Source of the DNA: Terriglobales bacterium
GTDB lineage: Bacteria > Acidobacteriota > Terriglobia > Terriglobales > Acidobacteriaceae
Length of the DNA stretch: 33,684 nt
NCBI GenBank assembly: GCA_030038475.1
Contig: JASHOU010000044.1
Location: 1 to 33,684 of the forward strand
Reading direction: 5' to 3'
This document shows positions 4,751-33,438 of this stretch, one piece after another. The first letter of the stretch is position 1. Every line of letters begins with the position of its first letter. Below the pieces are notes generated by a model that worked only from the letters and a program-made list of their open reading frames with translations, did not search any database and was not told the DNA's origin. Position numbers and translations under genes: made by a program.

Positions 4751-4797
4751 TCGTTGGCAAGAACTCGCAATGACCAACTATTAGCGACCAACAACTG
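4729..4797. repeat. Heptad array with inverted arms at the lnt 3' end
   Basis: The left arm has four 7-bp units at 4729-4756: GTCGTTA, GTCGATG, GTCGTTA and GTCGTTG. The right part (about 4766-4797) read on the minus strand gives related units (GTTGTTG, GTCGCTA, ATAGTTG, GTCATTG), so the region is two facing arms with a short centre. The left arm contains the lnt stop codon at 4748-4750. The structure could fold into an imperfect hairpin in the lnt-prfB transcript. Confidence 0.6.
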
Positions 4798-4828
4798 GCT
4801 TCCAAGATAAAGACCAAGTGGATCAGCA

Positions 4829-5930
4829 ATGCTAGATGAACTGGAACAGCAATATACTTCTCTGAAGACAAAGGTTCACGACCTGCGGGAGTATCTTTGA
4901 CGCGGGCAAGCTGCGCCAGCAGTTTGCCGAAATCGAGAAGCAGGCAGCGGATCCGAATCTGTGGTCGAATCCGGAAAAATCTCAACAGGTAATGCGCGAA
5001 CGGAAGCGCCTGGAGAGCATGTTGTCGCTGGAGGGCGATCTGGCGCGGCGCACCGACGACATTGCCACGTATTTCGATCTGGCGGGCGAGGGCGAGAACG
5101 TCGCCGCCGATTTGCAGCGCGATCTGGAATCGCTGCGCGAACTGGTGGATCGTGTCGAGACCGAGACGCTGCTTTCGGGCGAAAACGATGGCCTCAATGC
5201 GATCGTGACGATTCATCCGGGAGCGGGTGGCACTGAGTCGCAGGACTGGGCGGAGATGCTGCTGCGCATGTATCTGCGCTGGGCGGAGCGGCAAGGATTC
5301 AAAACCGAGATGTACGACTATCAGCCGGGTGAAGAAGCAGGAATCAAGTCGGCGACATTTTCCGTGATCGGGCAATATGCGTTTGGTTATTTGACGAGCG
5401 AGATTGGCGTGCACCGTCTGGTGCGGATTTCTCCGTTCGATCAGGCGAAGCGGAGGCATACATCGTTTGCCAGTGTATATGTTTCGCCGGAGATCGACGA
5501 GAGCATCGAGGTCGTTATTCGGCCGGAAGACATTCGGATCGATACCTACCGCTCGAGCGGCAAGGGCGGGCAGCACGTGAACACGACGGATTCGGCGGTG
5601 CGGATCACGCATATTCCGACCGGCCTTGTGGCTGCGTGCCAGAACGAGCGATCGCAGCACAAGAACAAAGACAAGGCGATGAGCATGTTGCGGTCGAAGC
5701 TCTATGAATTCGAGCTGGAGAAAAAACGCGAGGCGACGAAAAAGATCGAGGATTCGAAACTGGATATCGATTTCGGGTCGCAAATCCGGTCATACGTGCT
5801 GCAACCGTACCGCATGATCAAGGACCATCGCACGAAGCTGGAGATTGGCGATGTGGATCGGGTGCTGGATGGCGATCTGACGCCGTTGATGCAGGCGTAT
5901 CTGCGGATGAGACGAGGGGAAAAGAAATAG
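4829..5930 (+). CDS. prfB: Peptide chain release factor 2 (programmed +1 frameshift)
   Basis: RF2 releases the finished peptide at UGA and UAA codons. Translation starts at ATG 4829 and reads 23 codons to CTT. It then meets an in-frame TGA at 4898-4900 and must slip +1 to continue as GAC at 4899. The joined product is 366 residues, the usual RF2 length. The codon-recognition tripeptide SPF is at residues 201-203 and the catalytic GGQ at 246-248 (GKGGQHVNTTDSAVR). Starting at a later ATG such as 4992 would lose the N-terminal helical domain, so the frameshifted form is the right model. Low RF2 levels favour the shift, which gives autoregulation. No strong Shine-Dalgarno is seen before 4829. 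The gene probably follows lnt in one transcript. Confidence 0.96.
4886..4901 (+). promoter_or_regulatory. prfB +1 programmed ribosomal frameshift site
   Basis: A Shine-Dalgarno-like CGGGAG at 4886-4891 is followed by TAT, the slippery CTT codon (4895-4897), the in-frame TGA stop (4898-4900) and a C. Spacing and order are those of the well-known bacterial prfB site, where the internal SD, CUU and UGAC together drive the shift. The internal SD is one base weaker than the AGGGGG of Escherichia coli. Confidence 0.95.
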
Positions 5931-5968
5931 GGACGGTAAAAGAGAGCTGAGGGAGGAATATTTCCATT

Positions 5969-6487
5969 GTGATTGGCGAGAGCCTTGAGAGAAAGGGAAT
6001 CGTCAGGATTGTAGCGGCGATCGGAAGTTGTCTTTTAAATAGTTCCGCGGCAATGATTGTCTGCCCGATAGTCGCGGGGATTATCGCCTACGTCTTCGCA
6101 AGTCTTTCCTCCCCTCTGAAAGCCATAGGCGAGGTCGGGGGATTTGCCAACCCACTCGTCTGGGGCCCAGCATTCGTGGCTGGTTTTCTTCTGAGTTACG
6201 CTACGAGGCAGCGCGCGGCACGTTGGGTTTGGCTTTGGGGTTTTGGATGGCTGGCCGTGGGTATCGGGGATTCGGTGCGGTTCTACGATCCTCATTACTA
6301 CCAAGGGTGCTCGAACTTCCAAAATGTTGTGAATGCGTTCTTTATCCTCAACTCAAGAAGATGCGGCGGCGGGAGCTCGACTCTCAACGGTTTGTTCTTC
6401 ACGCTCCCGGCGATAAGCTCCGTCGCGTATTCGATGGGGGCGTGGGCTGCGATTAAATATGTCGACGCCGGGACAGAGCAAATATGA
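5969..6487 (+). CDS. Hypothetical multi-span membrane protein
   Basis: This 172-residue protein has about four hydrophobic segments, near residues 15-45, 62-77, 84-98 and 140-160. It has a loop rich in Cys/Gly/Ser (residues about 118-137, SRRCGGGSS). The start is GTG at 5969, chosen because a good GAGGGAGG Shine-Dalgarno lies about 10 bp upstream and no in-frame ATG occurs before residue 29. No family is recognised. Two cysteines flanking the loop before the last helix could form a disulfide outside the membrane; that is inference. It stands 38 bp after prfB and 48 bp before the HD-domain gene on the same strand, so co-transcription is possible. Confidence 0.7.
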   Translation: MIGESLERKGIVRIVAAIGSCLLNSSAAMIVCPIVAGIIAYVFASLSSPLKAIGEVGGFANPLVWGPAFVAGFLLSYATRQRAARWVWLWGFGWLAVGIGDSVRFYDPHYYQGCSNFQNVVNAFFILNSRRCGGGSSTLNGLFFTLPAISSVAYSMGAWAAIKYVDAGTEQI

Positions 6488-6535
6488 GTATCGAGAGTAC
6501 AACTCTGGGGCTGAGTCCATCTGAAAAGTAGAATC

Positions 6536-7141
6536 ATGAGCGGGAAGCGGCCGAAACACAAACCGCCGAATCTTGGACCGCGCCTGCAGCGTGCGTTTCG
6601 CTACGCGGCGAAAATGCATGATGGGCAGGCGCGCAAGGGAACGACGGTGCCTTATCTCTCGCATCTGATGGCGGTCACGTCGCTCGTGCTCGAAGCGGGC
6701 GGCGACGAGGAGATGGCGATTGCGGCGCTGCTCCACGATGTGGTCGAAGATTGCGGTGGAATGCCGCGGCTGCGGGAGATCCGCAAGATGTTTGGTAAGC
6801 GCGTGGCGCATATTGTGGAGGGGTGCACGGATTCCTTCGTCGAGCCGAAACCGGATTGGATCGAGCGCAAGCGCGGATACCTGGAAGAGGTGAAACATGC
6901 CGATGACGAGACGCGGCTGGTTTCGGCTTCGGACAAGCTGCATAATGTGCGGACGATTCTGACGGATTACCGCAAAGATGGCGAGGCGATATGGGTGCGG
7001 TTCAATGGGAAGAAGGAAGGAACCCTCTGGTACTATCGCGCGCTGACCGACGAATACTCGCGCAAGCCGAACCGTATCACGCGCGAGTTGGTGATTGCGG
7101 TCGCGCAACTGGAGCGCGATGTCGGCTCTAAATCGCGCTAG
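6536..7141 (+). CDS. HD-domain phosphohydrolase, small alarmone hydrolase-like (SpoT/Mesh1 type)
   Basis: The 201-residue protein is essentially one HD domain. It has the layout of the (p)ppGpp hydrolase half of RelA/SpoT: HDGQARKGTTVPYLSHL (His43), ALLHDVVEDCGG (His67-Asp68, Glu71-Asp72) and a downstream SASDKLHNVRTIL helix matching the 'DKLHNxRT' signature. There is no synthetase, TGS or ACT domain, so it would act as a stand-alone hydrolase of alarmones or of another nucleotide; which one cannot be read here. It differs from full-length RelA (over 700 residues). Start ATG 6536 is 48 bp after the membrane protein gene. Cytoplasmic. Confidence 0.82.
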   Translation: MSGKRPKHKPPNLGPRLQRAFRYAAKMHDGQARKGTTVPYLSHLMAVTSLVLEAGGDEEMAIAALLHDVVEDCGGMPRLREIRKMFGKRVAHIVEGCTDSFVEPKPDWIERKRGYLEEVKHADDETRLVSASDKLHNVRTILTDYRKDGEAIWVRFNGKKEGTLWYYRALTDEYSRKPNRITRELVIAVAQLERDVGSKSR

Positions 7142-7170
7142 TGTCCTGAATTGACATCACCAAGGCCCAA

Positions 7171-7245
7171 GAAGTCTTCCCACACAATCGTTTCCCTCCG
7201 AATCGTTTCCGACCCCATCATTTCCCACCCAATCGTAACTTGCGC
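7171..7245. repeat. 15-bp period imperfect tandem repeat, about five units
   Basis: Units begin at 7171, 7186, 7201, 7216 and 7231. The core AATCGTTTCC occurs at 7186 and 7201 and in degenerate form in the others (CATCATTTCC at 7216, AATCGTAAC at 7231). The repeat fills most of the gap between the HD gene and the alpha-repeat protein gene and ends about 20 bp before the latter's Shine-Dalgarno. It is therefore likely within its promoter or 5' leader. Confidence 0.6.
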
Positions 7246-7275
7246 GGTGACGCCGAACGGAATAGGAGATTAATC

Positions 7276-8463
7276 ATGCCTCGCATGATTGATCTAATCC
7301 GGAGCTCGGGGGTTCCGTCGAACCTGATGCAAGCGGCGGCGCGGGGATCTCTGTCGGTGCCGCCGGCGGAGATGATCGAGATTCTGGTTCATCTGGCGCT
7401 GCACAACAAATTATTTGCCGAGCGAGCGCGACTGACGCTGGCGAGCTGGGATGAAAAGGCCAGCCTGGCGGCGGCGGGCGATCCCAAGACCAGTCCGGGA
7501 GTGCTGGAGTATTTGGCTGCGCCGGAGAATCTGAGGCCTTGTCTGCTGCCGGTGCTGGTGGAAAATCCGGCGGTGGGGGAAGAATCGCTGGACCGGCTGG
7601 CGCTAACCGGGTCGCGTTCGGTGATTGAAAGTCTGATGACAAGCCAGCGGGTGATGAGCTCTACGCGGCTGATACAGGCGTTGCAGTCGAATCCGAATCT
7701 TCGTCCTAACGAGATGAGCGAGATTGGCAGAAAGCTTCATATCGCTCCGGCAGAGGAGCCGATGGCTGGCGAAGCGCAGGAGAACGACGAAGTTGTGGAA
7801 GCAGCGGTGCAAAAATATCTGGAAGAGAATGCGGTCGAGGTGGAAGCAGAGAAAGACAAAGCGTTCCAGGCGATGGGAGCGACGCAGGATGAAGCGACCG
7901 GCGAGGCCGCAAGTGAAGTTGAGCCGCAGGCAGCGGCGGCAGCGGCGGGGGCGGGAGCGTCGTCCAGCGCGACGGTGAGCAAGCCAAGCGCCGGCGCTGC
8001 TACGGCCAAGGCCAAGAAGCAACCAGTTACCGGGGAGGAAAAGCGCGACAGCACGCTGCAAAAGATCGCTAAGCTCGGCATCAAGGGCAGGATTGCGCTG
8101 GCGATGCGCGGCACCAAGGAGGAGCGGTCGATTCTGGTGCGCGATGCCACCAAGCTGGTGGCGCTGGCGGTGTTGGACTCTCCGAAAGTCACCGATGGCG
8201 AGGTGGAGGGCTTTGCGTCGCAAAAAAATGTTTTGGAGTCGGTTTTGCGGACGATTCCGATGAAACGTAAATTTGCCAAGAATTACAGCATCATGCGGAA
8301 CATCGTTTACAATCCGCGTTCGCCGCTCGACACCTCGCTCACGTTGATGAAGGGCCTGCTGATCCACGACTTGAAAAATCTTTCGGGGAACAAAGAGGTG
8401 TCGGACACGATTCGCAAGCTGGCTCTGCGTCTGTATAAGCAGAAGATGGAAAAGAAGAATTGA
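7276..8463 (+). CDS. Hypothetical alpha-helical repeat protein with Ala/Glu-rich linker
   Basis: The protein has 395 residues from ATG 7276, preceded by a clear TAGGAG Shine-Dalgarno about 7 bp upstream. An upstream in-frame GTG at 7240 has no such site and was not chosen. Residues about 1-155 are short helical repeats with recurring phrases (ASLAAAGDPKTSPGVLEYLA, NPAVGEESLDRLAL, NPNLRPNEM) like leucine-rich-repeat-variant (LRV) or HEAT-type solenoids. Residues about 155-265 are an acidic then Ala/Lys-rich low-complexity linker. Residues about 265-395 form a second helical domain with KIAKLGIKGRIALAMRGTKEERSILVRD. No enzyme motif, signal peptide or membrane segment is seen, so it is probably a cytoplasmic scaffold. 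The function is not known to me. Confidence 0.8.
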   Translation: MPRMIDLIRSSGVPSNLMQAAARGSLSVPPAEMIEILVHLALHNKLFAERARLTLASWDEKASLAAAGDPKTSPGVLEYLAAPENLRPCLLPVLVENPAVGEESLDRLALTGSRSVIESLMTSQRVMSSTRLIQALQSNPNLRPNEMSEIGRKLHIAPAEEPMAGEAQENDEVVEAAVQKYLEENAVEVEAEKDKAFQAMGATQDEATGEAASEVEPQAAAAAAGAGASSSATVSKPSAGAATAKAKKQPVTGEEKRDSTLQKIAKLGIKGRIALAMRGTKEERSILVRDATKLVALAVLDSPKVTDGEVEGFASQKNVLESVLRTIPMKRKFAKNYSIMRNIVYNPRSPLDTSLTLMKGLLIHDLKNLSGNKEVSDTIRKLALRLYKQKMEKKN

Positions 8464-21704: not shown

Positions 21705-23093
21705 TTATTGCCAGCCTCCGCCGAGAGCCTGGTAAAGCAGGACCATGGCTTGAAGTTCGCTGAATCGCGCTTGCGCAAGACTCAGTTCCGCGGAAAAGTA
21801 GTTGGTGTCGCTGGTCAGAACTTCCAGGTAGCTGGTCGCACCACCTTTGTAGCGCAACGCCGAGAGGCGCGATCCATCGGCAGCTGAGGCGGTGAGCAAC
21901 TGCAACTGCTGGCGGAGTTCCTGTGCCTTTTGGTAACCAATCAGTTCGTCAGAGACTTCGCGAAACGATTCCTGAACCGTTTGCTGATATACCAGCGTTG
22001 CTTGCTGTTGCAGAGCTTCAGCCAGCTTGACATTCGACTTGATCCTGCCGGCGGTGAAAATCGGCTGGGTCAAACCTGCAGCAAAGTTCCATAATCCAGA
22101 AGGGCCGGTGAAGAGGCCACTGAGGGCAGCACTTTGCGTGCCGCCGGCCCCGGTGAGGCTGATTTGCGGGAAATACGCCGCGCGGGCCACCCCGATCTGC
22201 GCATTCTGCGCGATCAATTGCTGTTCGGCCTGAAGTACGTCTGGCCGGCGTTCCAGCAGCGCAGAGGGAAGACCAGCGGGAATGTGTGGAGGATGGAATT
22301 GCTCGGTTAAGGTTTGGCCCCGCGGAATCGGACCGGCGTATCTTCCAAGAAGGACACTAAGGGCGTTTTCCTGTTGTTGAATCTGACATTCCAGGTCCGG
22401 GATCTCCGACGAAGCGGTGTATACCAACTGCTCCGCCTGCCGGACCTCCAGCATGGAAGCGGCGCCATGCTGCTCTTTCGTCGAGACCAGCTCAAGTGAG
22501 TCCTGCCGCGAAGCCAGCGTGCGCTTGGAAATTTCCAGTTCCAAGTCAAGCGCGCGCAATTGGAAATATCCAGAGGCTACGCTGGCGACCAACGATGACA
22601 AGACAGACCGGCGGCCCCATTCCGTGGCCAGAAGCTGCGCGCGGGCCGCTTCAGTAGCGCTCCGGTACTGACCCCAGAAGTCCAATACCCAACTGACCGA
22701 AACATCAAGCTGCTCGGCATTCAGCTGATAGGCGGGTTGGAGCTTGTTTTGTGGCGAGCGCAGTGCTGTGGCGCCGGCATCCCCGACGACGATCGGAAAT
22801 TGATCCGCGCGAGTGATCCCCAACTGGGCCCGGGCTTGGATGACGCGCGAAGCCGCGATGCGGACGTCATAGTTCTGCTGCAGCGCGGTATGGATTAATC
22901 CTTGGAGTTCCTTGTCCTGAAAGACTTCCCACCATTTCTCGTCGCCGAAAGCGGTTGCCTGGGCATCCTGTGGCGACTCACCCCGGTAGATTCCCGGAAT
23001 GTCAGTTTCAGGGGGCTTGTACTTGGGGTGAAGTGTGCATCCTGTAAGAAGCAAGGTGAAACTCAGCATCAGATATTTACGCGGAGTCTTCAT
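21705..23093 (-). CDS. RND efflux outer-membrane lipoprotein (OprM/NodT family)
   Basis: This is the outer-membrane channel of a tripartite efflux system: 462 residues from ATG 23093. The signal peptide ends in a lipobox, LLLTGC, so the mature protein is a lipoprotein. Family marks are WWEVFQDKELQGLIHTALQQNYD, IQARAQLGITRADQFP, the VSWVLDFWGQ motif, DVLQAEQQLIAQNAQIGVARAAYFPQIS and AGRIKSNVKLAEALQQQA, arranged as the two OEP repeats of helical hairpins. Its ATG overlaps the TGA of the pump gene by 4 bp, showing translational coupling. A longer in-frame extension to 23261 lies inside the pump gene and is not used. Confidence 0.93.
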   Translation of the reverse strand: MKTPRKYLMLSFTLLLTGCTLHPKYKPPETDIPGIYRGESPQDAQATAFGDEKWWEVFQDKELQGLIHTALQQNYDVRIAASRVIQARAQLGITRADQFPIVVGDAGATALRSPQNKLQPAYQLNAEQLDVSVSWVLDFWGQYRSATEAARAQLLATEWGRRSVLSSLVASVASGYFQLRALDLELEISKRTLASRQDSLELVSTKEQHGAASMLEVRQAEQLVYTASSEIPDLECQIQQQENALSVLLGRYAGPIPRGQTLTEQFHPPHIPAGLPSALLERRPDVLQAEQQLIAQNAQIGVARAAYFPQISLTGAGGTQSAALSGLFTGPSGLWNFAAGLTQPIFTAGRIKSNVKLAEALQQQATLVYQQTVQESFREVSDELIGYQKAQELRQQLQLLTASAADGSRLSALRYKGGATSYLEVLTSDTNYFSAELSLAQARFSELQAMVLLYQALGGGWQ

Positions 23094-26000
23094 GCCGGTT
23101 TTCCCTTCTGCTTGCCCCCGAAAATGCTGGAAACACGTTCGACCACGACGAAGGTTACGGGAATAATGAAGATTGCGATCACGGAAGCGGTGAGCATTCC
23201 TCCGATTACCACCGTGCCCAACACCCGGCGTGACACAGCGCCCGCTCCCACCGCAGCCCACAAAGGCAACATGCCGAGGATGAAGGCGAAGGCTGTCATC
23301 AGGATGGGTCTGAGGCGCACGCGGGCAGCCGCAAGCGCGGCGTCGATCAACGGCATTCCACTGTCATAGTTCGCTTTAGCAAATTCGACGATCAAGATTG
23401 CATTCTTGGCCGCCATGCCAATCAGCATGACCAGTCCGATCTGCGCGTACACGTCGTTCTCCATGCGACGAGACCACAGAGCGGCAAAGGCGCCGAGCAT
23501 CGCGATCGGAACGCCCAGCAGCACGCTGAACGGAATCGACCAGCTCTCGTATTGCGCCGCCAGGATGAGGAAGACAAATAAGCCGGAAAGGCCGAAGACG
23601 AGCGCCGGAGGCACGCCTTGCGCTGCTTTCTGTTCCTGGAATGACATACCCATGAAGTCGAATCCCATGCCTTCGGGCATGGTTTGTGCAAATACCTCCT
23701 CGAGGGCGCGCGTGGCCTGGTTGGCGCTGTATCCTGGAGCGGCATTGCCGTTGATTTGCGCCGCACGATACTGGTTGTAGCGCATGGTGAACTCAGGTCC
23801 AGCCTGCGGTCCGCTTAGTAAGAGTGTGCTCAGCGGCACCTTCCCGCCGTTGGAGTTGGAGACGTAAAACTGGCCAAGGTCTTCCACTCGCGTACGATAT
23901 TGCCCTTCTGCCTGCACCCGGACCTGCCACTGCCGGCCGAACTGGTTGAAATAGTTGACCAACGCCCCGCCCATGAACACTTGCATGGTCTGATACACGT
24001 CTCTGAGTAGAACGCCTTCCTGCAAGACCTTGGCCCTATCCACATCCACGGAAACTTGCGGCACGGATGGAAGAAATGTAGTTGTCACGCCCGCCAGCTC
24101 GGGCCGTTTGTGAGCGGCTACCAAGAATGTCTGCACGTTTTGCGCAAGAAAGCTAAGATCTTTTCCGGCACGGTCTTCTAGAATGAAAGTGAACCCGCCG
24201 GAAGCGCCGATTCCCGGAATCGCCGGGGGTGGGAAGGAAAAGGCATATCCCTCCTGCACCGAGTAGAGCGCGCCATTGATGCGGCGGAGCAGCGCATCCG
24301 CCTGCTCTTCCGGAGCCTTCCGCTCCGACCACGGCTTCAACGTAATGAAGAAGAAAGCGCTGTAGGTATTCGAAACTCCGCTCAGCAAACTAAAGCCATT
24401 GACGGTGGTACAGCCGCTCACACCCGGGATCTGGGCAACAATTTCTTCCACCTTTCGAGTAGCAGCCTCCGTGCGCTGCAAAGAAGCGGCGTCAGGAAGT
24501 TGAATTCCACCAAAAAGGTATCCCTGATCCTCTTGTGGGAGAAACGAAGATGGAATCTTGCCGCCCATGAGCAGCGCAGCGGCCGCCACCAACGCGAGCA
24601 GTACCATGCTCAACACGGACTTGTGAATCAGCAGGGAGCTGCCATGGACGTAACCATCGGTTGCCCTTCCGAATACACGATTGAACAAAGCGAAAAACTT
24701 CCCCATCACTCCGCTGCTCTTCTTCTTCGGGCGCAACAGCAAGGCGGACAACGCAGGACTCAAGGTGAGTGCATTGAAGGCGGAGAACAACACCGAGATG
24801 GCGATGGTCACCGCAAATTGCTGGTAGAGGCGTCCGGTAATGCCGGGGATGAGCGCGGTCGGAATAAAGACGGCGGCGAGAATCAGAGCGGTGGCAATCA
24901 CCGGGCTGGACACTTCCTCCATCGCCTTCACGGTTGCGTCTTTCGGCGAAAGGCCTTGCTCGATGTGGTGCTCGACTGCTTCGACCACAACAATCGCGTC
25001 GTCGACCACGAGGCCGATCGCGAGCACCAGACCGAAAAGCGAAAGAGTGTTGATGGAAAAACCGAGGAGGGGAAATACGACGAAGGTACCGATGAGAGAT
25101 ACAGGAACGGCCATCAGCGGAATCAGAGTCGCCCGCCATCCCTGCAGAAAGATGTACACCACGAGAATCACGAGGACCAACGCCTCGAATAAAGTCTTAA
25201 CGATTTCGTGGATGCCTTCCGTGACTGCCAGTGTCGTGTCTAGCGAAATCTCGTAGTCCAGGTCTTCCGGAAAAGTTTGTTTCAGTCGCGTCATCAGCTT
25301 TTTTACGCTGTTGGCAGCCTGTAGGGCATTCGAGCCCGGCAGTTGATACACCGCGAGAACGGCAGCAGGCTTGCTGTTGTAGCGTGCGCTGACGTTGTAT
25401 GTCTGCGCGCCGAGTTCGAGACGGGCAACATCCTTCAGCCGCAGAACGGCTCCATTGGGGAGCGCCCGAATGATGATTTCGCCGAATTCTTTCGCGGAGG
25501 TCAGTCTCCCCTGAGCTCGTACCGCGTAGGTAAACTGCTGTCCTTTGGGAACCGGTTCCGCGCCGATCTGCCCGGCTGGATTGACGGCATTTTGTGTCTG
25601 GATGGCAGCGATAATCTGTGGCACGGTAACGCCGAGCTTAGCCAGCAGGTCCGGCCTTACCCAGCAGCGCATGGCGTACTGCCCCGCGCCAAACACGGTT
25701 ACGCTGGCGACGCCCGGCTGACGGGTAATCTGGTCCACGAGGTTGATGTAAGCGTAGTTCGCCAGAAAAATGTTGTCGTACGTGCCTTTTGGAGAGAATA
25801 GAGAAATCAGGATCAAGGGCGAAGCGGTCGACTTCTGCACCGTCACCCCGGCTTGGGTCACGTCCGCGGGGAGTTGCGAATTCGCCTGCTGCGTCCGCAT
25901 TTGCGCGAGAATCTGATCGGTGTTGGGATTACTCTTGATATCGAAGTCCACCGTTAGCGCCATCGAGCCGTTGTTGGCGTTCGTGGAATACATATATTCC

Positions 26001-26224
26001 ATGTTGTCCACGCCGCTCATCTGCTGCTCGATGGGAGTGGCGACGGATTGCTCAATCGTGAGTGCGTCGGCTCCGGGGTAAGTCGCATTCACCTTAATTT
26101 CGGGCGGGACGATGTTAGGAAACTGTGCGCTGGGCAGCGAAAGCATGGCCACGGTGCCGACGATGACCATGAGAATCGAGATCACCATGGCGACGATCGG
26201 GCGCTCGATGAAAAATTTGGACAT
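23090..26224 (-). CDS. RND multidrug efflux pump inner-membrane subunit (HAE1/AcrB family)
   Basis: This is a 1044-residue proton-driven exporter, normal length for AcrB/MexB proteins. Typical features are the N-terminal FFIERPIVAMVISILMVIVG and the proton-relay aspartate pair in GLVVDDAIVVVEAVEHH (near residue 408). MEEVSSPVIATALILAAVFIPTA comes next, and the conserved Lys in MAAKNAILIVEFAK marks the second relay. Two large periplasmic loops with the internal repeat of the family are present. It should form a trimer that takes drugs, bile-like molecules or solvents from the periplasm and hands them to the outer-membrane channel encoded next. ATG 26224 follows the adaptor stop by 3 bp, with GGAAAGAGTAGG just upstream. 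Confidence 0.96.
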   Translation of the reverse strand: MSKFFIERPIVAMVISILMVIVGTVAMLSLPSAQFPNIVPPEIKVNATYPGADALTIEQSVATPIEQQMSGVDNMEYMYSTNANNGSMALTVDFDIKSNPNTDQILAQMRTQQANSQLPADVTQAGVTVQKSTASPLILISLFSPKGTYDNIFLANYAYINLVDQITRQPGVASVTVFGAGQYAMRCWVRPDLLAKLGVTVPQIIAAIQTQNAVNPAGQIGAEPVPKGQQFTYAVRAQGRLTSAKEFGEIIIRALPNGAVLRLKDVARLELGAQTYNVSARYNSKPAAVLAVYQLPGSNALQAANSVKKLMTRLKQTFPEDLDYEISLDTTLAVTEGIHEIVKTLFEALVLVILVVYIFLQGWRATLIPLMAVPVSLIGTFVVFPLLGFSINTLSLFGLVLAIGLVVDDAIVVVEAVEHHIEQGLSPKDATVKAMEEVSSPVIATALILAAVFIPTALIPGITGRLYQQFAVTIAISVLFSAFNALTLSPALSALLLRPKKKSSGVMGKFFALFNRVFGRATDGYVHGSSLLIHKSVLSMVLLALVAAAALLMGGKIPSSFLPQEDQGYLFGGIQLPDAASLQRTEAATRKVEEIVAQIPGVSGCTTVNGFSLLSGVSNTYSAFFFITLKPWSERKAPEEQADALLRRINGALYSVQEGYAFSFPPPAIPGIGASGGFTFILEDRAGKDLSFLAQNVQTFLVAAHKRPELAGVTTTFLPSVPQVSVDVDRAKVLQEGVLLRDVYQTMQVFMGGALVNYFNQFGRQWQVRVQAEGQYRTRVEDLGQFYVSNSNGGKVPLSTLLLSGPQAGPEFTMRYNQYRAAQINGNAAPGYSANQATRALEEVFAQTMPEGMGFDFMGMSFQEQKAAQGVPPALVFGLSGLFVFLILAAQYESWSIPFSVLLGVPIAMLGAFAALWSRRMENDVYAQIGLVMLIGMAAKNAILIVEFAKANYDSGMPLIDAALAAARVRLRPILMTAFAFILGMLPLWAAVGAGAVSRRVLGTVVIGGMLTASVIAIFIIPVTFVVVERVSSIFGGKQKGKPA

Positions 26225-26227
26225 GGC

Positions 26228-27448
26228 CTACTCTTTCCCTGCCGGCGTCTGGTAGGAACTTGGTTGAACCACAGCACCCGGACGCACTTTCTGTATTCCT
26301 TGCACAATGACCTGTTCTCCAGCCTTGAGTCCGTCTTTAATCACCCATTCAGTTCCCACGCGTGGTCCAACCTTGACCGACCGGATCTCGGCCTTATTGC
26401 CGCTCCCTAGAACGGCGACCTGGTAGGATCCCTGAGTTTCGTTGACTGCCGCTTGCGGAATCACGAGCGCGTTGTTGAGGATTTCCGTCTGCATGCGGAT
26501 CCGGCCGAATTGCCCCGGACGGAGGATACGCTCTGGATTTGGAAAGGCTGCGGCGATGCGAATCGTACCTGTGTGCAGGTCGACTTGCCGGTCTGCCAAA
26601 AACAGTTTTCCGGGGTGGTCGTATGTGGTGCCATCGGATAGGACCAGTTGCAGCGGCCGCAGTTCCCCTGGAGCCATTCGGACGCCCATTGCGGCCTGGC
26701 TGATGATCTTCGCAGCTCGAAGATATTCATTTTCGCCCAGTGCAAAGTAAACCTTGACTGGGTCGAGTTGGGAAACCGTTGTGAGTTGGGTGGTTGGGCC
26801 CACGAGGTCGCCGATCTGTCCATTTGCAATTCCCGCAATGCCATCGATCAGAGACCGAACCTTTGTATAACCCACATTGATCTGAGCCAGCTCTACCTGG
26901 GCCTGCTGGGCCCGCACCACTGCCTCTGCCGCACGTAACGTCTGGATATCGCTGTCCAATTGGCTCTGCGCAATCGCCCGTGCCGCGGCGAGCGGCCGAT
27001 CCCGATCCACGTTCTGACGTGCATCGGCTTCCTTGGCTTTCGCTTGCGCCAGTTGTCCTTGTGCTTGTTCGAGAGAGGCTCGCAGCGGCTGTGGGTCGAT
27101 CTCAAAAAGGACTTGTTCCTTCTTAACGAAAGTGCCCTCTTTGTAGGTTTGCTTGATCAAGTAGCCGGTAACCTGCGGCCGGATATCCGCGTTCACAAAG
27201 CCGTCAACGTTGGCCACCCATTCTTGCATGATCGGAACGTCCCTCTGCAGCACTGGAGTCACTTCGACTCGAGGAGGAGGAAGGCTCGGCGTGCTCGGGC
27301 GTTCGCCGCAACCCGTGGCCAGCAGCAATCCCGCGACCGCCAAGACCCGAAGAATCCTTCGGATGCCTTGGGATTTTCTCTTGATTCGCATTTCCCTCGA
27401 CCGCTCCTCGGAAATCGCGCGCCGAATGTTCCTGGCACAGTCAGACAT
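26228..27448 (-). CDS. RND efflux periplasmic adaptor (membrane fusion protein, AcrA family)
   Basis: The adaptor links the RND pump to the outer-membrane channel. It has 406 residues with an N-terminal signal and lipobox (LLLATGC, Cys near 47). The domains follow the AcrA order: RVEVTPVLQRDVPIMQEWVANVDGFVNADIRPQVTGYL (lipoyl half), an alpha hairpin (SLEQAQGQLAQAKAKEADARQ), YTKVRSLIDGIAG, a beta barrel with QLDPVKVYFALGENEYL, and the membrane-proximal VIVQGIQKVRPGA. The start at 27448 has a strong AGGAGGAG. An internal ATG at 27391 would give a shorter, more usual lipoprotein signal and remains possible. It is the first gene of the minus-strand adaptor-pump-channel operon. No regulator gene is adjacent; the nearest is the GntR gene about 1.4 kb upstream. 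Confidence 0.93.
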   Translation of the reverse strand: MSDCARNIRRAISEERSREMRIKRKSQGIRRILRVLAVAGLLLATGCGERPSTPSLPPPRVEVTPVLQRDVPIMQEWVANVDGFVNADIRPQVTGYLIKQTYKEGTFVKKEQVLFEIDPQPLRASLEQAQGQLAQAKAKEADARQNVDRDRPLAAARAIAQSQLDSDIQTLRAAEAVVRAQQAQVELAQINVGYTKVRSLIDGIAGIANGQIGDLVGPTTQLTTVSQLDPVKVYFALGENEYLRAAKIISQAAMGVRMAPGELRPLQLVLSDGTTYDHPGKLFLADRQVDLHTGTIRIAAAFPNPERILRPGQFGRIRMQTEILNNALVIPQAAVNETQGSYQVAVLGSGNKAEIRSVKVGPRVGTEWVIKDGLKAGEQVIVQGIQKVRPGAVVQPSSYQTPAGKE

Positions 27449-27589: not shown

Positions 27590-28483
27590 CTACGGCGTTG
27601 TTTGTAAGACGAGCGTCTTTTCCAGCCGAAAGTTCAAGACACTCTCCGCAGGCACCTGAACCTGTTTGCCCCGAGTGAACACCTGAGTTAGAAAGCCGCC
27701 GCCAGCACCAGCGAGAGCGCCGACGCCGGCTCCTTTGCCACCACCGAAAATCCCACCCATCAAGGCACCCAGGGCCGAACCGCCCCCTATGGTTTCCACG
27801 GTGCGCCGATTGGCGCCAACACCCCTCCGGTTTGTTTCCGCGACGTCGGAGGAGACCACCTGATATTGCTTCTTGCCGACGCTAACGGAATATAGATCGA
27901 GAACCAATTCCGGACTGTGCATGAAGCCGCCAGACGAAATTTTGCGGACGATCAGCTGCGCACTCGATCCGGCTGGAATGGCGACTCGGCCCGCGGTGTC
28001 CTGAATGTCCCCGGTAATCGACGCCGAGTAAGTTTGGCCGTCATAGGATTTGGTTGAATCGATCGTTTCGCCTGTCTGTATGGTCAGGTCAGTGCCAATG
28101 GGAATCACCAATGCGGCGCTTGAAACCGGCCAGGGCGCCGATCCCAGGCTATTGAAGACAATCGCGTCGATATCGCTGGTTGGGAACTGGTACTTGATGC
28201 CGAGCGCATCCTGAAATGTGACTGGATTCGACCCGGTGAAGTGGCCCGAGTAACTCCTTCCGCCGCGCAACGCGACCGTATCACTTGAGGCATTGAAAGC
28301 GAGAGATTGTACATCTTTCGCGGGGAACTGATACAGGATTCCCTGCCCATCGGTGAAGGCGACAGTCTCCAGGCCACATTCGCCCGAATAACTGCTCCCG
28401 TCTCGCAAAATGATCGTGTCCGCAGACGCAAGCGTTGCGAACGAGAAGCACACCGTAAAGAGCAAGCAGCAAAGTCCTTTCAT
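27590..28483 (-). CDS. Secreted protein with internal duplication and C-terminal glycine zipper
   Basis: The 297-residue protein has a cleavable signal peptide (KGLCCLLFTVCFSFATLASA). Residues about 20-110 are two copies of a roughly 44-residue unit: ADTIILRDGSSYSG...ILYQFPAKDVQSLAFN and SDTVALRGGRSYSG...IKYQFPTSDIDAIVFN. A middle beta-rich part carries IPAGSSAQLIVRKI. The C-terminal part has a glycine zipper, ALMGGIFGGGKGAGVGALAGAGGGFL, before RGKQVQVPAESVLNFRL. Such zippers occur in small envelope proteins and insert in or associate with membranes. ATG 28483 is chosen because GGAGA lies about 7 bp upstream and it gives a correct signal peptide; the open frame continues to 28597 without support. 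The function is unknown. Confidence 0.82.
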   Translation of the reverse strand: MKGLCCLLFTVCFSFATLASADTIILRDGSSYSGECGLETVAFTDGQGILYQFPAKDVQSLAFNASSDTVALRGGRSYSGHFTGSNPVTFQDALGIKYQFPTSDIDAIVFNSLGSAPWPVSSAALVIPIGTDLTIQTGETIDSTKSYDGQTYSASITGDIQDTAGRVAIPAGSSAQLIVRKISSGGFMHSPELVLDLYSVSVGKKQYQVVSSDVAETNRRGVGANRRTVETIGGGSALGALMGGIFGGGKGAGVGALAGAGGGFLTQVFTRGKQVQVPAESVLNFRLEKTLVLQTTP

Positions 28484-28856: not shown

Positions 28857-29657
28857 TTACCTCCGAGCATCCGCCGCCCGGCCGTCGAAATTTGCATTCT
28901 GGACGGCGCTGCTGTTGACCATTGCCGCCAGAACGGCCTGTAATGATTTTTGGAGATGGATTTCGGTGAGGTGCCCAGCTCGTTCGCCATCGCCTTTCTC
29001 AAGGGCCTCGACGATATTCTTGTGATCGTCAGACATTGTGCGAATCTGAGCTGGCATCGATAAGCTCACATGGATAATGCGACGCGTCTCTTCCATTGCC
29101 TCAAGAATCGCTCGGAACAGCGAGTCGTTCCCTGAAGCCCGGGCAATTTCAAGATGGAATTTCTCGTTCGCCATGATCCACTCGACTTGACCCATCCGAT
29201 CGTCGATATCGAATGTCGTGATCTTATCGTCAAAAGACCTAAGCCGGACTGGATCCACGCGTCCCGCTGCCAGCCTAGCAGCTGCGGATTCGAGTATGAT
29301 TCGTAGTTCCAAAAGATCTTTCACAGATTTCATCGTAAGCGGAGCCACAATGTACCCTTGGCGCGCGCGAGGGGTAACGAGTCGCTCGCGCGACAGCGCC
29401 GCCAGCGCCCATCGTATGGGAGCTTTGCTTACGTCATAGCGATCTGCCAGCTGGCTTTCACTGCAAGACTCGCCGGGAGCGAAAACGCACGTGAGGATGT
29501 CATTTTTTATCCGTGCGTAAATCTGCTCCTTGAGAGGTACATCAACCTTTGGGGCGGCGCTCTGGGTACCGCTGGAGTTGTTTCGAATCCCACCGCTCCT
29601 GACTCTTACTCGCGCTTTTACTCTCTGCACTGGGCCTTCTTTCTTACCGCATCCCAT
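28857..29657 (-). CDS. GntR-family transcriptional regulator with FCD domain (FadR subfamily)
   Basis: The 266-residue protein has a basic, low-complexity N-terminal extension (about 38 residues) and a GntR winged helix at about residues 40-105: LKEQIYARIKNDIL, GESCSESQLADRYDVSKAPIRWALAALSRERLV. An all-helical FCD ligand domain covers about 110-240 (VKDLLELRIILESAAARLAAG, ANEKFHLEIARASGN, DDHKNIVEALEKGDGERA). FCD regulators bind small organic acids or similar ligands, often with a metal; the ligand here is unknown. It is divergent from the leader/DUF3300 genes. A TTGACA-17-CATTAT promoter and the first of three palindromes precede it, which suggests autoregulation. The start is ATG 29657, where the Shine-Dalgarno is weak. 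Confidence 0.9.
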   Translation of the reverse strand: MGCGKKEGPVQRVKARVRVRSGGIRNNSSGTQSAAPKVDVPLKEQIYARIKNDILTCVFAPGESCSESQLADRYDVSKAPIRWALAALSRERLVTPRARQGYIVAPLTMKSVKDLLELRIILESAAARLAAGRVDPVRLRSFDDKITTFDIDDRMGQVEWIMANEKFHLEIARASGNDSLFRAILEAMEETRRIIHVSLSMPAQIRTMSDDHKNIVEALEKGDGERAGHLTEIHLQKSLQAVLAAMVNSSAVQNANFDGRAADARR

Positions 29658-29701
29658 TGATCGATCAGTTGATAGACTGACTCTTCGACACTTCTTTTGT
29701 G

Positions 29702-29730
29702 ATAATGCCCTTTCATTCGTGACATGTCAA
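29702..29730 (-). promoter_or_regulatory. Putative sigma-70 promoter for the GntR gene
   Basis: Read on the minus strand, TTGACA (29725-29730) is followed after exactly 17 bp by CATTAT (29702-29707). The -35 box overlaps palindrome 1, so an operator there would block RNA polymerase. Confidence 0.6.
29720..29729. promoter_or_regulatory. Operator-like palindrome 1, TGACATGTCA
   Basis: A perfect 10-bp palindrome that overlaps the -35 of the GntR promoter. It is one of three identical copies in the 168-bp divergent region and the likely binding site of the adjacent GntR protein. Confidence 0.65.
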
Positions 29731-29761
29731 TAATAAAATGAAAAATAATATTTGACATTAG

Positions 29762-29771
29762 TGACATGTCA
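29762..29771. promoter_or_regulatory. Operator-like palindrome 2, TGACATGTCA
   Basis: This copy starts 42 bp after copy 1 (four helical turns). A TTGACA at 29752-29757 lies just upstream, with an AT-rich -10-like AAATTA at 29776-29781. The palindrome would then sit in the spacer of a rightward promoter for the leader/DUF3300 genes. Confidence 0.65.
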
Positions 29772-29793
29772 TGCCAAATTAACTATTGCATTT

Positions 29794-29805
29794 GTGACAT
29801 GTCAC
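29794..29805. promoter_or_regulatory. Operator-like palindrome 3, GTGACATGTCAC
   Basis: A perfect 12-bp palindrome that extends the same 10-bp core. Its core starts 33 bp (about three helical turns) after copy 2 and ends 20 bp before the GTG of the short leader frame, near the expected transcription start. Confidence 0.65.
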
Positions 29806-29824
29806 GCACAATTAGGAGGATGTT

Positions 29825-29905
29825 GTGAAAAAAATGGACGCGGCGCGGAGCCTAGCTGTTCTTGCTCTAGGCAGTCAGGATGTGTTTCATGCGACAGACA
29901 TATAA
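29825..29905 (+). CDS. Possible 26-residue leader peptide upstream of the DUF3300 gene
   Basis: A GTG start at 29825 follows a perfect AGGAGG (29815-29820) at 4 bp. The frame encodes 26 residues beginning VKKMDAARSLAVLALGS and stops at TAA 29903-29905. It overlaps the DUF3300 start (29889) by 17 bp in another frame. The Shine-Dalgarno is the best in this region, yet the only frame it serves is this short one. It may couple translation or act as a regulatory leader. Whether the peptide itself has a role is unknown; a chance frame is possible. Confidence 0.4.
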   Translation: MKKMDAARSLAVLALGSQDVFHATDI

Positions 29906-31178
29906 GTTCAGCGCGATTTTGTTGTTGATCACGCTGGTAGTTTTGCCGGACTTCGGTCCGCTTCTTTCGGCGCAGACAACGGTCCCGACACCGCAAGAAC
30001 TGGATCAGTTGCTGGCTCCGGTCGCTCTTTATCCAGATTCTCTGCTGTCTCAGATCACTACGGCCTCGACAAATCCGCAGGAAATCCTGGATGTGAATTC
30101 CTGGTTGCAGCAGCACCCTGGTCTGACGGGCACCGCGCTGACCGATGCGGCTCAGAGTCAGGGATTCGATCCTGCATTTATCGCCCTGGTGAATTTCCCT
30201 CAAGTGCTGGAGATGATGGCGGAGCACATCGACGATTACGCCGCCATCGGAGAGGCGTTCACGGCTGATCAGGGAGCTGTGACGGAGTCGATTCAGCGAT
30301 TGAGGGCTCAGGCCTATGCCGCTGGTGCGCTTCGCAGCAATGCGCAGCAGACGGTCGAGGTGCAGCAACCGGCAGGCCAGACTGTGTATGTAATTCAGCC
30401 GGCGAATCCGCAAGTCGTCTATGTGCCGCAATATGACCCCACCGCAGTTTACGTTCGGCCTGCCTCCAGCGGCGTCGTTGCGACATCGATGATCACTTTC
30501 GGAGTGGGGATCGGGATTGGCGCTCTGCTCGTTACGAACCACCCTTGGGGATGGGGCGGATGGGGATGGAACTGGGGAGCGCGACGCGCCTATTACAATC
30601 ACGGCTATTGGGGCGGTTGGGGGCCGAATCCTTATCGTCCGCCGCACAACTATTATCGCGGACGACCGATTGTGTGGGCCAACCGGCCAGGTTATCGCGG
30701 CAACTGGGGCTACCGTCCGCCTCACTATCGCCCGCCAAATCGTCCGGGGAACAACCATCCCGGAAATCGGCCCGGCGGACACCGCCCGGCACCGACACCA
30801 AGGCCCAACGCGGGCACACCAAACCGGCCGGTACGGCCAAGTCCGACGAAACCGGCACCGCCAAATCGCACTCCTGGACAACCGAGCCGACCCGAAAATC
30901 CGGATCGGCAAAGACCGAACCGGCCTACCACGCCTGACCGAACGAGGCCAGCGCCACCGAACGGAACGCCAAGACAGCCGAGCCGCCCTGCAAACCCGGA
31001 CCGCCAGAGACCAGGCCGACCCGAAACACCGGACCAAACGAAACCGGGACAGCCGAACCTAACTCCCGGGCAGCCGAGACCTGGGAATCCGGATCGGCAA
31101 AGGCCGAGTCGACCCGCTCAGGCCAAACCAGCACGACCGGATCGATCTCGCGCAGGCAATTCGCGGCCGCGATCTTAA
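29889..31178 (+). CDS. DUF3300 domain protein with Pro/Arg/Asn-rich tail
   Basis: The secreted or envelope protein has 429 residues from ATG 29889. A signal peptide (YKFSAILLLITLVVLPDFGPLLSAQ) leads into the DUF3300 domain at about residues 32-190: LDQLLAPVALYPDSLLSQITTAS, VNSWLQQHPGLTG, ALVNFPQVLEMMAEHIDDYAAIG and VYVIQPANPQVVYVPQYDPTAVYV. A Gly/Trp/Tyr-rich linker follows, and the last 180 residues are low complexity, rich in Pro, Arg and Asn with recurrent NPDRQRPxRP units. The domain's function is unknown. ATG 29889 is preferred over 29880 because AGGA sits 9 bp before it. The palindromes upstream suggest control by the divergent GntR protein. Confidence 0.88.
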   Translation: MRQTYKFSAILLLITLVVLPDFGPLLSAQTTVPTPQELDQLLAPVALYPDSLLSQITTASTNPQEILDVNSWLQQHPGLTGTALTDAAQSQGFDPAFIALVNFPQVLEMMAEHIDDYAAIGEAFTADQGAVTESIQRLRAQAYAAGALRSNAQQTVEVQQPAGQTVYVIQPANPQVVYVPQYDPTAVYVRPASSGVVATSMITFGVGIGIGALLVTNHPWGWGGWGWNWGARRAYYNHGYWGGWGPNPYRPPHNYYRGRPIVWANRPGYRGNWGYRPPHYRPPNRPGNNHPGNRPGGHRPAPTPRPNAGTPNRPVRPSPTKPAPPNRTPGQPSRPENPDRQRPNRPTTPDRTRPAPPNGTPRQPSRPANPDRQRPGRPETPDQTKPGQPNLTPGQPRPGNPDRQRPSRPAQAKPARPDRSRAGNSRPRS

Positions 31179-31893: not shown

Positions 31894-32346
31894 ATGGATC
31901 AATTCGCAAAGAAGCTACCTGTAGAGCGCGAACCTTTTTTCACTGAAGCTGCTGCTCGGAGGGGAATTCTCTCGCTCATCGTCGAAAAGGACTTCTGGGT
32001 GACTTGGTGCCTCAAACGTGTTTTTGAGATGAAGGACATCCCAGGGCACATATTCAAAGGCGGGACGTCACTATCGAAGGTGTATGGGTTGATAAACCGA
32101 TTTTCAGAGGACATCGACATATCAATTGACCGCTTTGGACTTGGCTTTGCCGGTGAGAGGGACCCGGCGCAAGCGGGTTCACGCAAGAAACGAGAAAAAT
32201 TGACCGACGATCTAAAGCATACGTGTGCGAACTTTATAGCAAACGAGAGCGAAACTTGTGGAGGTATTCTCGTTCACATTCGTTCTTCTCAATGCAGGCC
32301 GAGCACGCTCCACAGTTCAGGCCTGCCGCCCGCCAAATCTGCTTGA
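31894..32346 (+). pseudogene. AbiEii/AbiGii-type nucleotidyltransferase toxin, C-terminally truncated
   Basis: The frame of 150 residues carries the nucleotidyltransferase signature of AbiEii toxins: VEKDFWVTWCLKRVF, HIFKGGTSLSKVYGLI and RFSEDIDISIDRFGLG, with the Gly-Gly-Thr-Ser loop and the Asp-x-Asp metal site (DID). Full-length AbiEii proteins are about 300 residues. Here similarity seems to end near residue 115 (after DDLKHTCANFIA) and the frame stops at 32344-32346, seven bases before a mobile element. The toxin catalytic core is thus present but the C-terminal half is gone. AbiE works as a type IV toxin-antitoxin phage defence; this copy is probably inactive. Confidence 0.6.
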
Positions 32347-32352
32347 GCTTTT

Positions 32353-32469
32353 CTAGGAGTGTGTCCGAGTATTCGGAATTGACTTGTTTCGACCACTACC
32401 TGTTGTGGTTCTGCGCGAAGCGGGCCACAACATGTCAGCCGACGAATGATTTCTCGGACAGACTCCTAG
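32353..32469. mobile_element. MITE-like element with 17-bp terminal inverted repeats and TA flanks (Tc1/IS630 style)
   Basis: The left end CTAGGAGTGTGTCCGAG (32353-32369) and the right end CTCGGACAGACTCCTAG (32453-32469) are inverted copies with one mismatch in 17. Each end carries CTAG, so a TA dinucleotide flanks both sides (32354-32355 and 32467-32468), as expected for IS630/Tc1-type insertion with TA duplication. The interior has a TTGTGG / CCACAA hairpin at its centre and no gene. It is 111 bp between the TAs. The element provides the stop codon of the truncated integrase. Confidence 0.75.
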
Positions 32470-33438
32470 CATGTGATTATCGGGGTTACCGTTCTTTGTT
32501 GCGAAGACCAGCCGATGTTTCCGTTTGTAGGTCTGCTCCGAGAAGATTTTCTTGACTTCCAGGTTACTCATGAGCCAGGGAGGTACGGGGACGGTTCTCT
32601 CTTCATGATCTTTTATCACGAAGTCGTACTCTGGTTTGGGCGTGACTTTAATGGTGTAGTTTTTCCAGTCGAGGTCGGCCCAAGACAGGAAACGAACTTC
32701 GTCTTCCCGGAAACCTGTTAGCAAGAACGTTCGGAAGAGAATCTGCTCAGCCGTCCAGCGTGGCACACATGCGTTAAAGAACGTTCGCAGCTCTTCTGCA
32801 GTGTAAATTTCCGGTTCTCGATCAGTCACCCCGAGCCTGGTGTCTCTAGTCGTGATTATCCCTTCACCGGGCTTGAGCTTGAGGGAATCCCTGTACCACT
32901 GGCTTATTCGAGTGAGCTTGTTTCCCGCGGTTCGGGCTGAATTCATCTCGTTGTCGAGCAGCCATTTCCGATACTCAAGAAGATCCTTTCGGGTGAGATC
33001 AACGACGTTGATGCGGTGTGGTCCGTCATTCAAGTTCCATTCCTGAAATTGGCGCAGCGTGTGCTCGTAGAGCTCATGGGTTTCCGGGCGATTTGAGAGT
33101 TTCACGTCTTCCAGCCACCCGTGTGCGGCTGCCTTTATGGAAAGTACCGGCGTATCGATTTGTTTGACCGGTATCCCTTTGGCTCGCGCTGTCAAATATG
33201 TCGATTCAAAATCGGCGGCGTTGACGGCGTCTTGCGCATTTGGCCCGATCTTTTTCCAAATCTCTCGGTCGGCTTCATAGCGGTGGAGGTAGAAGTTTCC
33301 CTCGGGGTGATGTTCTTCTTTGCCTTTAACGATCACCCAATCAGACTTGATCTTTCCGTTCTTTCCAATGGAGGGTTTGCAGTAGCGCCACTTCTTGCCG
33401 ATACGAACGTACTTCCAGACGGATACGCGTCTGTTCAT
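32353..33438 (-). pseudogene. Tyrosine recombinase/integrase, truncated at its C-terminus by a MITE
   Basis: The frame starts at ATG 33438 (GGAAAGG about 9 bp upstream). It shows an N-terminal arm-binding part rich in Lys/Arg/Trp, a SAM-like core-binding domain (about residues 100-205) and the beginning of the catalytic domain: TAEELRTFFNACVPRW, TGFREDEVRFLSWADLDW (first catalytic Arg) and the Lys-containing strand near KDHEERTVPVP. After KNGNPDNHM the sequence enters the MITE, and the last 38 residues come from it. The stop TAG is the terminal CTAG. The HxxR, second His and nucleophile Tyr are absent, so the protein cannot recombine DNA. No remainder of the gene is seen beyond the MITE. Confidence 0.85.

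Follow-up and report, generated by a model that had tools for sequence, protein, structure and literature searches.

The window analysed here, a contig of 33,684 nucleotides from a Terriglobales bacterium, carries three identical copies of a 10-bp palindrome, TGACATGTCA, in front of a GntR-family gene that heads a cluster of RND efflux genes. Which protein reads these palindromes, and which genes are placed under its control? The features on which the argument rests are given below, where C8 denotes another contig of the same genome, carrying a paralogous cassette.

29720..29729, no strand: palindrome 1 (TGACATGTCA), overlapping the -35 of leftward candidate promoter P1; counterpart in C8
29762..29771, no strand: palindrome 2 (TGACATGTCA), overlapping the -35 of leftward candidate promoter P2; counterpart in C8
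29795..29804, no strand: palindrome 3 (TGACATGTCA), on the DUF3300 side, ending 9 bases before the Shine-Dalgarno-like AGGAGG
29702..29730, minus strand: candidate gntR promoter P1, consensus match TTGACA-17-CATTAT; hexamers and spacing identical in C8
29745..29772, minus strand: candidate gntR promoter P2, consensus match ATGACA-16-TATTAT; GTGACA-16-TACTAT in C8
29814..29819, plus strand: Shine-Dalgarno-like AGGAGG, preceding a 26-codon ORF
28857..29657, minus strand: GntR-family regulator with FCD domain (Pfam FCD 3.9e-23, GntR 1.1e-14); start codon uncertain, an in-frame GTG at 29630 being possible too
27590..28483, minus strand: unassigned ORF with an export signal by eye, mostly within ~1.2 kb unmatched in C8; no NCBIfam family above cut-off (scanned from 28507)
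26228..27448, minus strand: RND efflux periplasmic adaptor (TIGR01730, 8.6e-72)
23090..26224, minus strand: RND efflux permease (NF000282, 1280 bits, cut-off 1250)
21705..23093, minus strand: efflux outer-membrane subunit of the NodT family (TIGR01845, 7.4e-115, scanned from 23261; frame from ATG 23093)
29880..31178, plus strand: DUF3300 protein (Pfam PF11737, 8.1e-52); the start may be ATG 29889

The interval singled out in the initial annotation (29658-29824) takes up the greater part of the 222 bp that separate gntR from DUF3300, an intergenic region that is AT-rich (40% GC) and holds all three palindromes. These are exact copies with start-to-start spacings of 42 and 33 bp, as had been claimed. 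When Markov-1 sequences modelled on the 222-bp region were used as simulated gaps, three copies of one 10-bp palindrome were obtained in 0 of 20,000 cases and two copies in 3 of 20,000.

In the window as in C8, the two palindromes nearest to gntR each overlap the -35 hexamer of a candidate promoter, and the earlier placing of one palindrome over the gntR -35 holds for palindrome 1 and P1. The core-promoter overlap is thus kept in the homologous locus, as judged from consensus promoters in one paralog pair, and it is partly built in, because TGACA supplies five of the six bases of TTGACA. Scanning of 301 bp on both strands yielded five promoter consensus matches, compared with 0.7 in shuffled sequences; a third, weaker minus-strand match in the window reads ATGTCA-17-TATTAT, and the corresponding scan of C8 returned equivalents of P1 and P2 in corresponding places plus one match on the opposite strand. 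The matches on the plus strand, CTGACT-18-GATAAT (29677-29706) and GTGACA-16-AAAAAT (29719-29746), are placed otherwise than in the initial annotation, where palindromes had been assigned to the interior and the vicinity of the start of a rightward promoter; such a promoter is not established.

On the DUF3300 side, the 26-codon ORF (29825-29905, GTG at 29825) has a good Shine-Dalgarno sequence and overlaps the start of the DUF3300 gene, and it possibly encodes a leader peptide. The DUF3300 protein itself has a long tail rich in Pro, Arg and Asn (window 30760-31178; by eye). AbiEii-like and tyrosine-recombinase-like ORFs (window 31894-33438), found where the contig ends beside the cassette, hint at a mobile region.

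Genomic distribution of the motif and the paralogous cassette

The genome (4,464,700 bp in 216 contigs) contains five exact copies of TGACATGTCA, a count that is unremarkable in itself, since 2.8 are expected by chance from the base composition of the window. All five sit in the promoter regions of two gntR copies, and the genome scan recommended in the initial annotation therefore revealed no random scatter of the motif. Because the exact copies outside the window front the second gntR copy only, the palindromes are very probably sites of the adjacent regulator, which agrees with the earlier assignment of the motif to the FCD-type GntR protein. Sites with one mismatch are near background (28 genome-wide versus 24 for the reversed control pattern), and the 8 of these 28 that were checked all fall within open reading frames of 100 aa or more.

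An AATG extension turns the palindrome into an oriented motif, GTGACATGTCACNAATG, which in the gntR sense is matched within one mismatch at four of the five sites and with three mismatches at the fifth. At up to two mismatches this extended motif is confined, within this genome, to the two gntR loci, so that a regulon motif in the wide sense that had been envisaged is not supported. Allowing three mismatches gives 18 places (control, 6), eight of them at the two gntR loci and ten elsewhere; seven of the latter fall within ORFs of 120 aa or longer and three fall outside such frames.

The remaining exact copies, C8:28615 and C8:28648, are 33 bp apart and lie upstream of a second gntR, whose product is 92% identical to the window GntR protein. 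It is followed by an RND adaptor gene (95% identical protein) and by a pump gene of which the contig, ending there, includes just the first part. This paralogous locus, the oriented AATG extension and the RND genes that follow gntR all go beyond the initial annotation. Three blastn blocks of DNA homology link the window and C8; they start at palindrome 2, span gntR and reach into the pump gene. In the gntR-adaptor interval the ~1.2 kb of the window unmatched in C8 consists mostly of one ORF, and the gntR leader is longer in C8 by about 50-60 bp. The 21 bases that follow each palindrome pair palindrome 2 with the first C8 site (16/21 identical) and palindrome 1 with the second (17/21). Palindrome 3 reaches 12/21 with palindrome 2 and likewise with the first C8 site, and has no C8 counterpart. 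The two palindromes that do have one are spaced at 42 bp in the window versus 33 bp in C8. The paralog comparison is modestly significant (Fisher p 0.026, with a count that includes the chance-aligned stretch of palindrome 3). As the two cassettes are paralogs, the association of the motif with gntR counts as one duplicated event and not as two independent ones.

The regulator and known GntR operators

The product of gntR belongs to the FCD-type GntR class, with 54 bits for the GntR wHTH (cut-off 27) and 83 bits for FCD (cut-off 24); no NCBIfam cut-off was reached by this protein. Among solved chains, the highest scores went to 3c7j, 7xp0 and 6z74, the last of which we take to be Atu1419, as the residue numbers of the Atu1419 paper fit the chain. 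By sequence alone, N164, H168, H212 and H234 are predicted to be the metal ligands of the FCD domain. A single-sequence AlphaFold model of the protein (mean pLDDT 43) was left unused.

The regulatory arrangement proposed here is of a known type. In the available portions of the report on Atu1419, an FCD/VanR-type GntR regulator of Agrobacterium fabrum, three identical 10-bp perfect palindromes are described at promoter elements (PMC7797058). The window locus shares with it an FCD GntR protein, three such palindromes including the promoter region of the regulator's own gene, and a metal site composed of Asn and three His, in which the N-x3-H spacing is that of N137/H141 in Atu1419 (PMC7797058). 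According to the same portions, the Atu1419 operator is, in contrast, ATGTATACAT, two of its sites lie 190 bp apart in one promoter region with the third elsewhere, and the protein controls hydroxycinnamate degradation, not efflux (PMC7797058). In the alignment of the two proteins Glu34 and Arg49 of Atu1419 are kept as E67 and R82, whereas the key Arg45, which reads a key G, aligns with Lys78, and Thr46 with Ala79.

Other members of the family were compared on the basis of similarly partial texts. HypR of Streptomyces coelicolor, an FCD GntR autorepressor, recognizes the motif CTNTGC(A/C)ATGTCAC, which has ATGTCAC in common with GTGACATGTCAC; however, its site is described without clear symmetry and its regulon serves hydroxyproline use from several promoters (PMC6608401). 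The operators of the FadR subfamily, with the consensus TKGT-N2/3-ACMA and double sites common in divergons, are likewise short palindromes in regulator/target intergenic regions, but the GT-N2/3-AC core failed to match here, TGACATGTCA having the reverse order AC-AT-GT (PMC4494728). The initial annotation was therefore right in separating the motif from the classical FadR sequence TGGTNNNACCA. In the NanR operator, (GGTATA)3, three regulator dimers occupy three repeats, which are GGTATA units and not separate palindromes (PMC8012715). The exact 10-mer occurs as a string in 18 papers of the open literature, a body that excludes subscription papers and preprints; of the 17 listed, none deals with a bacterial operator as judged by title and abstract opening. 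Hence, while the FCD-GntR multi-operator type is already known, we found no description of this operator sequence in that literature.

Predicted control of the efflux genes and competing explanations

We consider it likely that the adjacent FCD GntR protein uses the palindromes as operators, through which it would repress its own gene and, by read-through, the RND adaptor, pump and outer-membrane genes. Judged from the DNA and the encoded domains, control by GntR of its own expression via the palindromes is very probable, and that of the neighbouring efflux pump probable. In such a scheme each palindrome would be occupied by one GntR dimer. Since the two candidate promoters arranged in tandem and pointing leftward have their -35 hexamers overlapped by palindromes 1 and 2, RNA polymerase would be blocked. 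Repression would extend from gntR to the downstream RND genes. In the scans of either copy, neither a sigma-70-like promoter nor a coding-strand terminator was found between gntR and the adaptor gene, where the sole terminator-like site is on the opposite strand. GntR may be released when a ligand occupies the metal site of the FCD domain. Palindrome 3, as an added operator unit in the window copy, could serve the control of rightward transcription toward DUF3300, and the C8 cassette, having the same operator, would be cross-regulated.

Several observations count against reading the palindromes as GntR operators, namely the off-consensus motif, the replacement of Arg45 by Lys, and the presence of TetR-like genes at 2/4 homologous pump loci. 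RND operons are usually under TetR or MarR regulators, and a protein of this kind encoded elsewhere might own the operators and control both cassettes, gntR being merely one of its targets. Among 80 other genomes searched at E<=1e-120, four have a relative of the adaptor (53-56% identity); inspection by eye of the stretch examined upstream of these four more distant homologs revealed a TetR-like ORF in two cases (L064, L067) and a GntR-like ORF in none. The departure of the motif from the FadR consensus, as given in the available portions of its report, favours such a regulator too (PMC4494728). Yet no second regulator gene common to both loci was seen in the ORF lists inspected by eye (L006 from base 6000), MarR-like and pirin-like ORFs having been noted on C8. 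Moreover, operators located at a regulator's own promoter usually mediate autoregulation. Ownership by another regulator is, on balance, unlikely. A different origin of the repeats, as a by-product of tandem duplication of a promoter fragment in which each unit was kept for its -35 hexamer and not as a protein operator, would suit the oriented repeat unit and the fact that TGACA gives most of a -35. However, in all five copies the 10-bp palindrome is perfectly preserved, even in the TGTCA half outside the -35, and the 21 bases that follow the counterpart palindromes differ at 4-5 positions, which makes this explanation very improbable.

Cooperative looping between phased palindromes, put forward in the initial annotation, would be a compatible addition to control by GntR. 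Of the helical register on which it was based, one part stands, as 42 bp corresponds to 4.00 turns, but 33 bp makes 3.14 turns, a phase error of 51 degrees, and equally good phasing is reached by 12% of spacing pairs drawn at random (20-59 bp). Distances of 33-43 bp are, furthermore, short for a DNA loop, and the spacings of the paralogs differ. The available text on Atu1419 does propose that this tetrameric FCD regulator loops 190 bp (PMC7797058). Looping is weakly supported, superfluous to the account of autorepression and, in our estimation, quite unlikely; side-by-side cooperative binding without it is possible.

Control of an RND pump by an FCD GntR protein has no clear precedent in the titles and abstracts of the open literature; the nearest match by title deals with a GntR protein of mycobacteria that acts on a permease (PMC4609117). 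The palindromes thus constitute a concrete candidate operator for an uncharacterised regulator heading a multidrug-type efflux gene cluster. They would extend the FCD-GntR set by a non-consensus operator together with its recognition helix, a pair of use in deriving rules for protein-DNA recognition; aside from the operator and the recognition pair, the system would represent ordinary gene regulation. A more far-reaching combination can be offered only tentatively, being rather doubtful as a whole: an operator outside the FadR-subfamily class, read by an FCD GntR with Lys for Arg and Ala for Thr, would cross-wire two paralogous RND cassettes; duplication of an operator unit in the window copy would have recruited DUF3300 as a divergent gene; and recombination would have remodelled the stretches separating the operators while these stayed fixed.

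Occurrence in other genomes and in viral contigs

Among 399 genomes sampled from the class, the exact palindrome pair (15-45 bp gap) was found in one, the bacterium's own. Homologs of the GntR protein at E<=1e-28 are present in 5 of 396 genomes of the phylum (at most six candidates scored per genome): its own and four with proteins at 31-34% identity, which are therefore too distant for footprinting. At E<=1e-40 the protein was found in 1 of 61 genomes, again its own. Plasmids yielded six records at E<=1e-25 with identities of 30-35%. A scan of genome contigs for GntR identified one locus, L019, in Candidatus Sulfotelmatobacter MAG JOPF030 (genome G786; a genus of Acidobacteriota). The rare motif and the rare GntR protein go together, L019 included.

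This locus carries a near-identical copy of the cassette, palindrome 3 included, with palindrome spacings of 33 and 43 bp. In the stretch tested (window 3104-8463), G786 and the bacterium's own genome share just 67-78% DNA identity, so the L019 copy was either transferred or mis-binned. G786 has one gntR copy and a fourth palindrome, located inside an ORF. L019 differs from the window at 8 of 6321 columns, all of them in 29740-29810 (71 bp), a clustering for which 0 of 200,000 simulations were as extreme. None of the eight differences is inside a palindrome, two pairs of them are adjacent-base swaps, and the avoidance of palindromes within the 71 bp is not significant (about 0.07). A pump contig of G786, L057 (G786:C385), is a mosaic: where it differs in 25765-27377, 7/7 positions have the C8 allele and fall within 26759-26921; it shows ~3 kb without difference from the window, and is ~7% divergent toward the outer-membrane gene (21708-23735 region). 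Either gene conversion between paralogs or an assembly chimera would produce this structure. Because of this mosaic, the L019 difference cluster is more likely to stem from recombination over short tracts or from an artefact of assembly or binning, and we left it out as evidence.

The exact palindrome pair is also present in 17 viral contigs. A tblastn search (E<=1) of the DNA examined from these contigs gave no GntR match, so the viral pairs are attributed to chance or to other repressors. In four viral contigs (L042, L045, L047 and L049), whose examined DNA gave no match to this GntR, there are pairs of TGACATGTCAC, perhaps operators of phage repressors.
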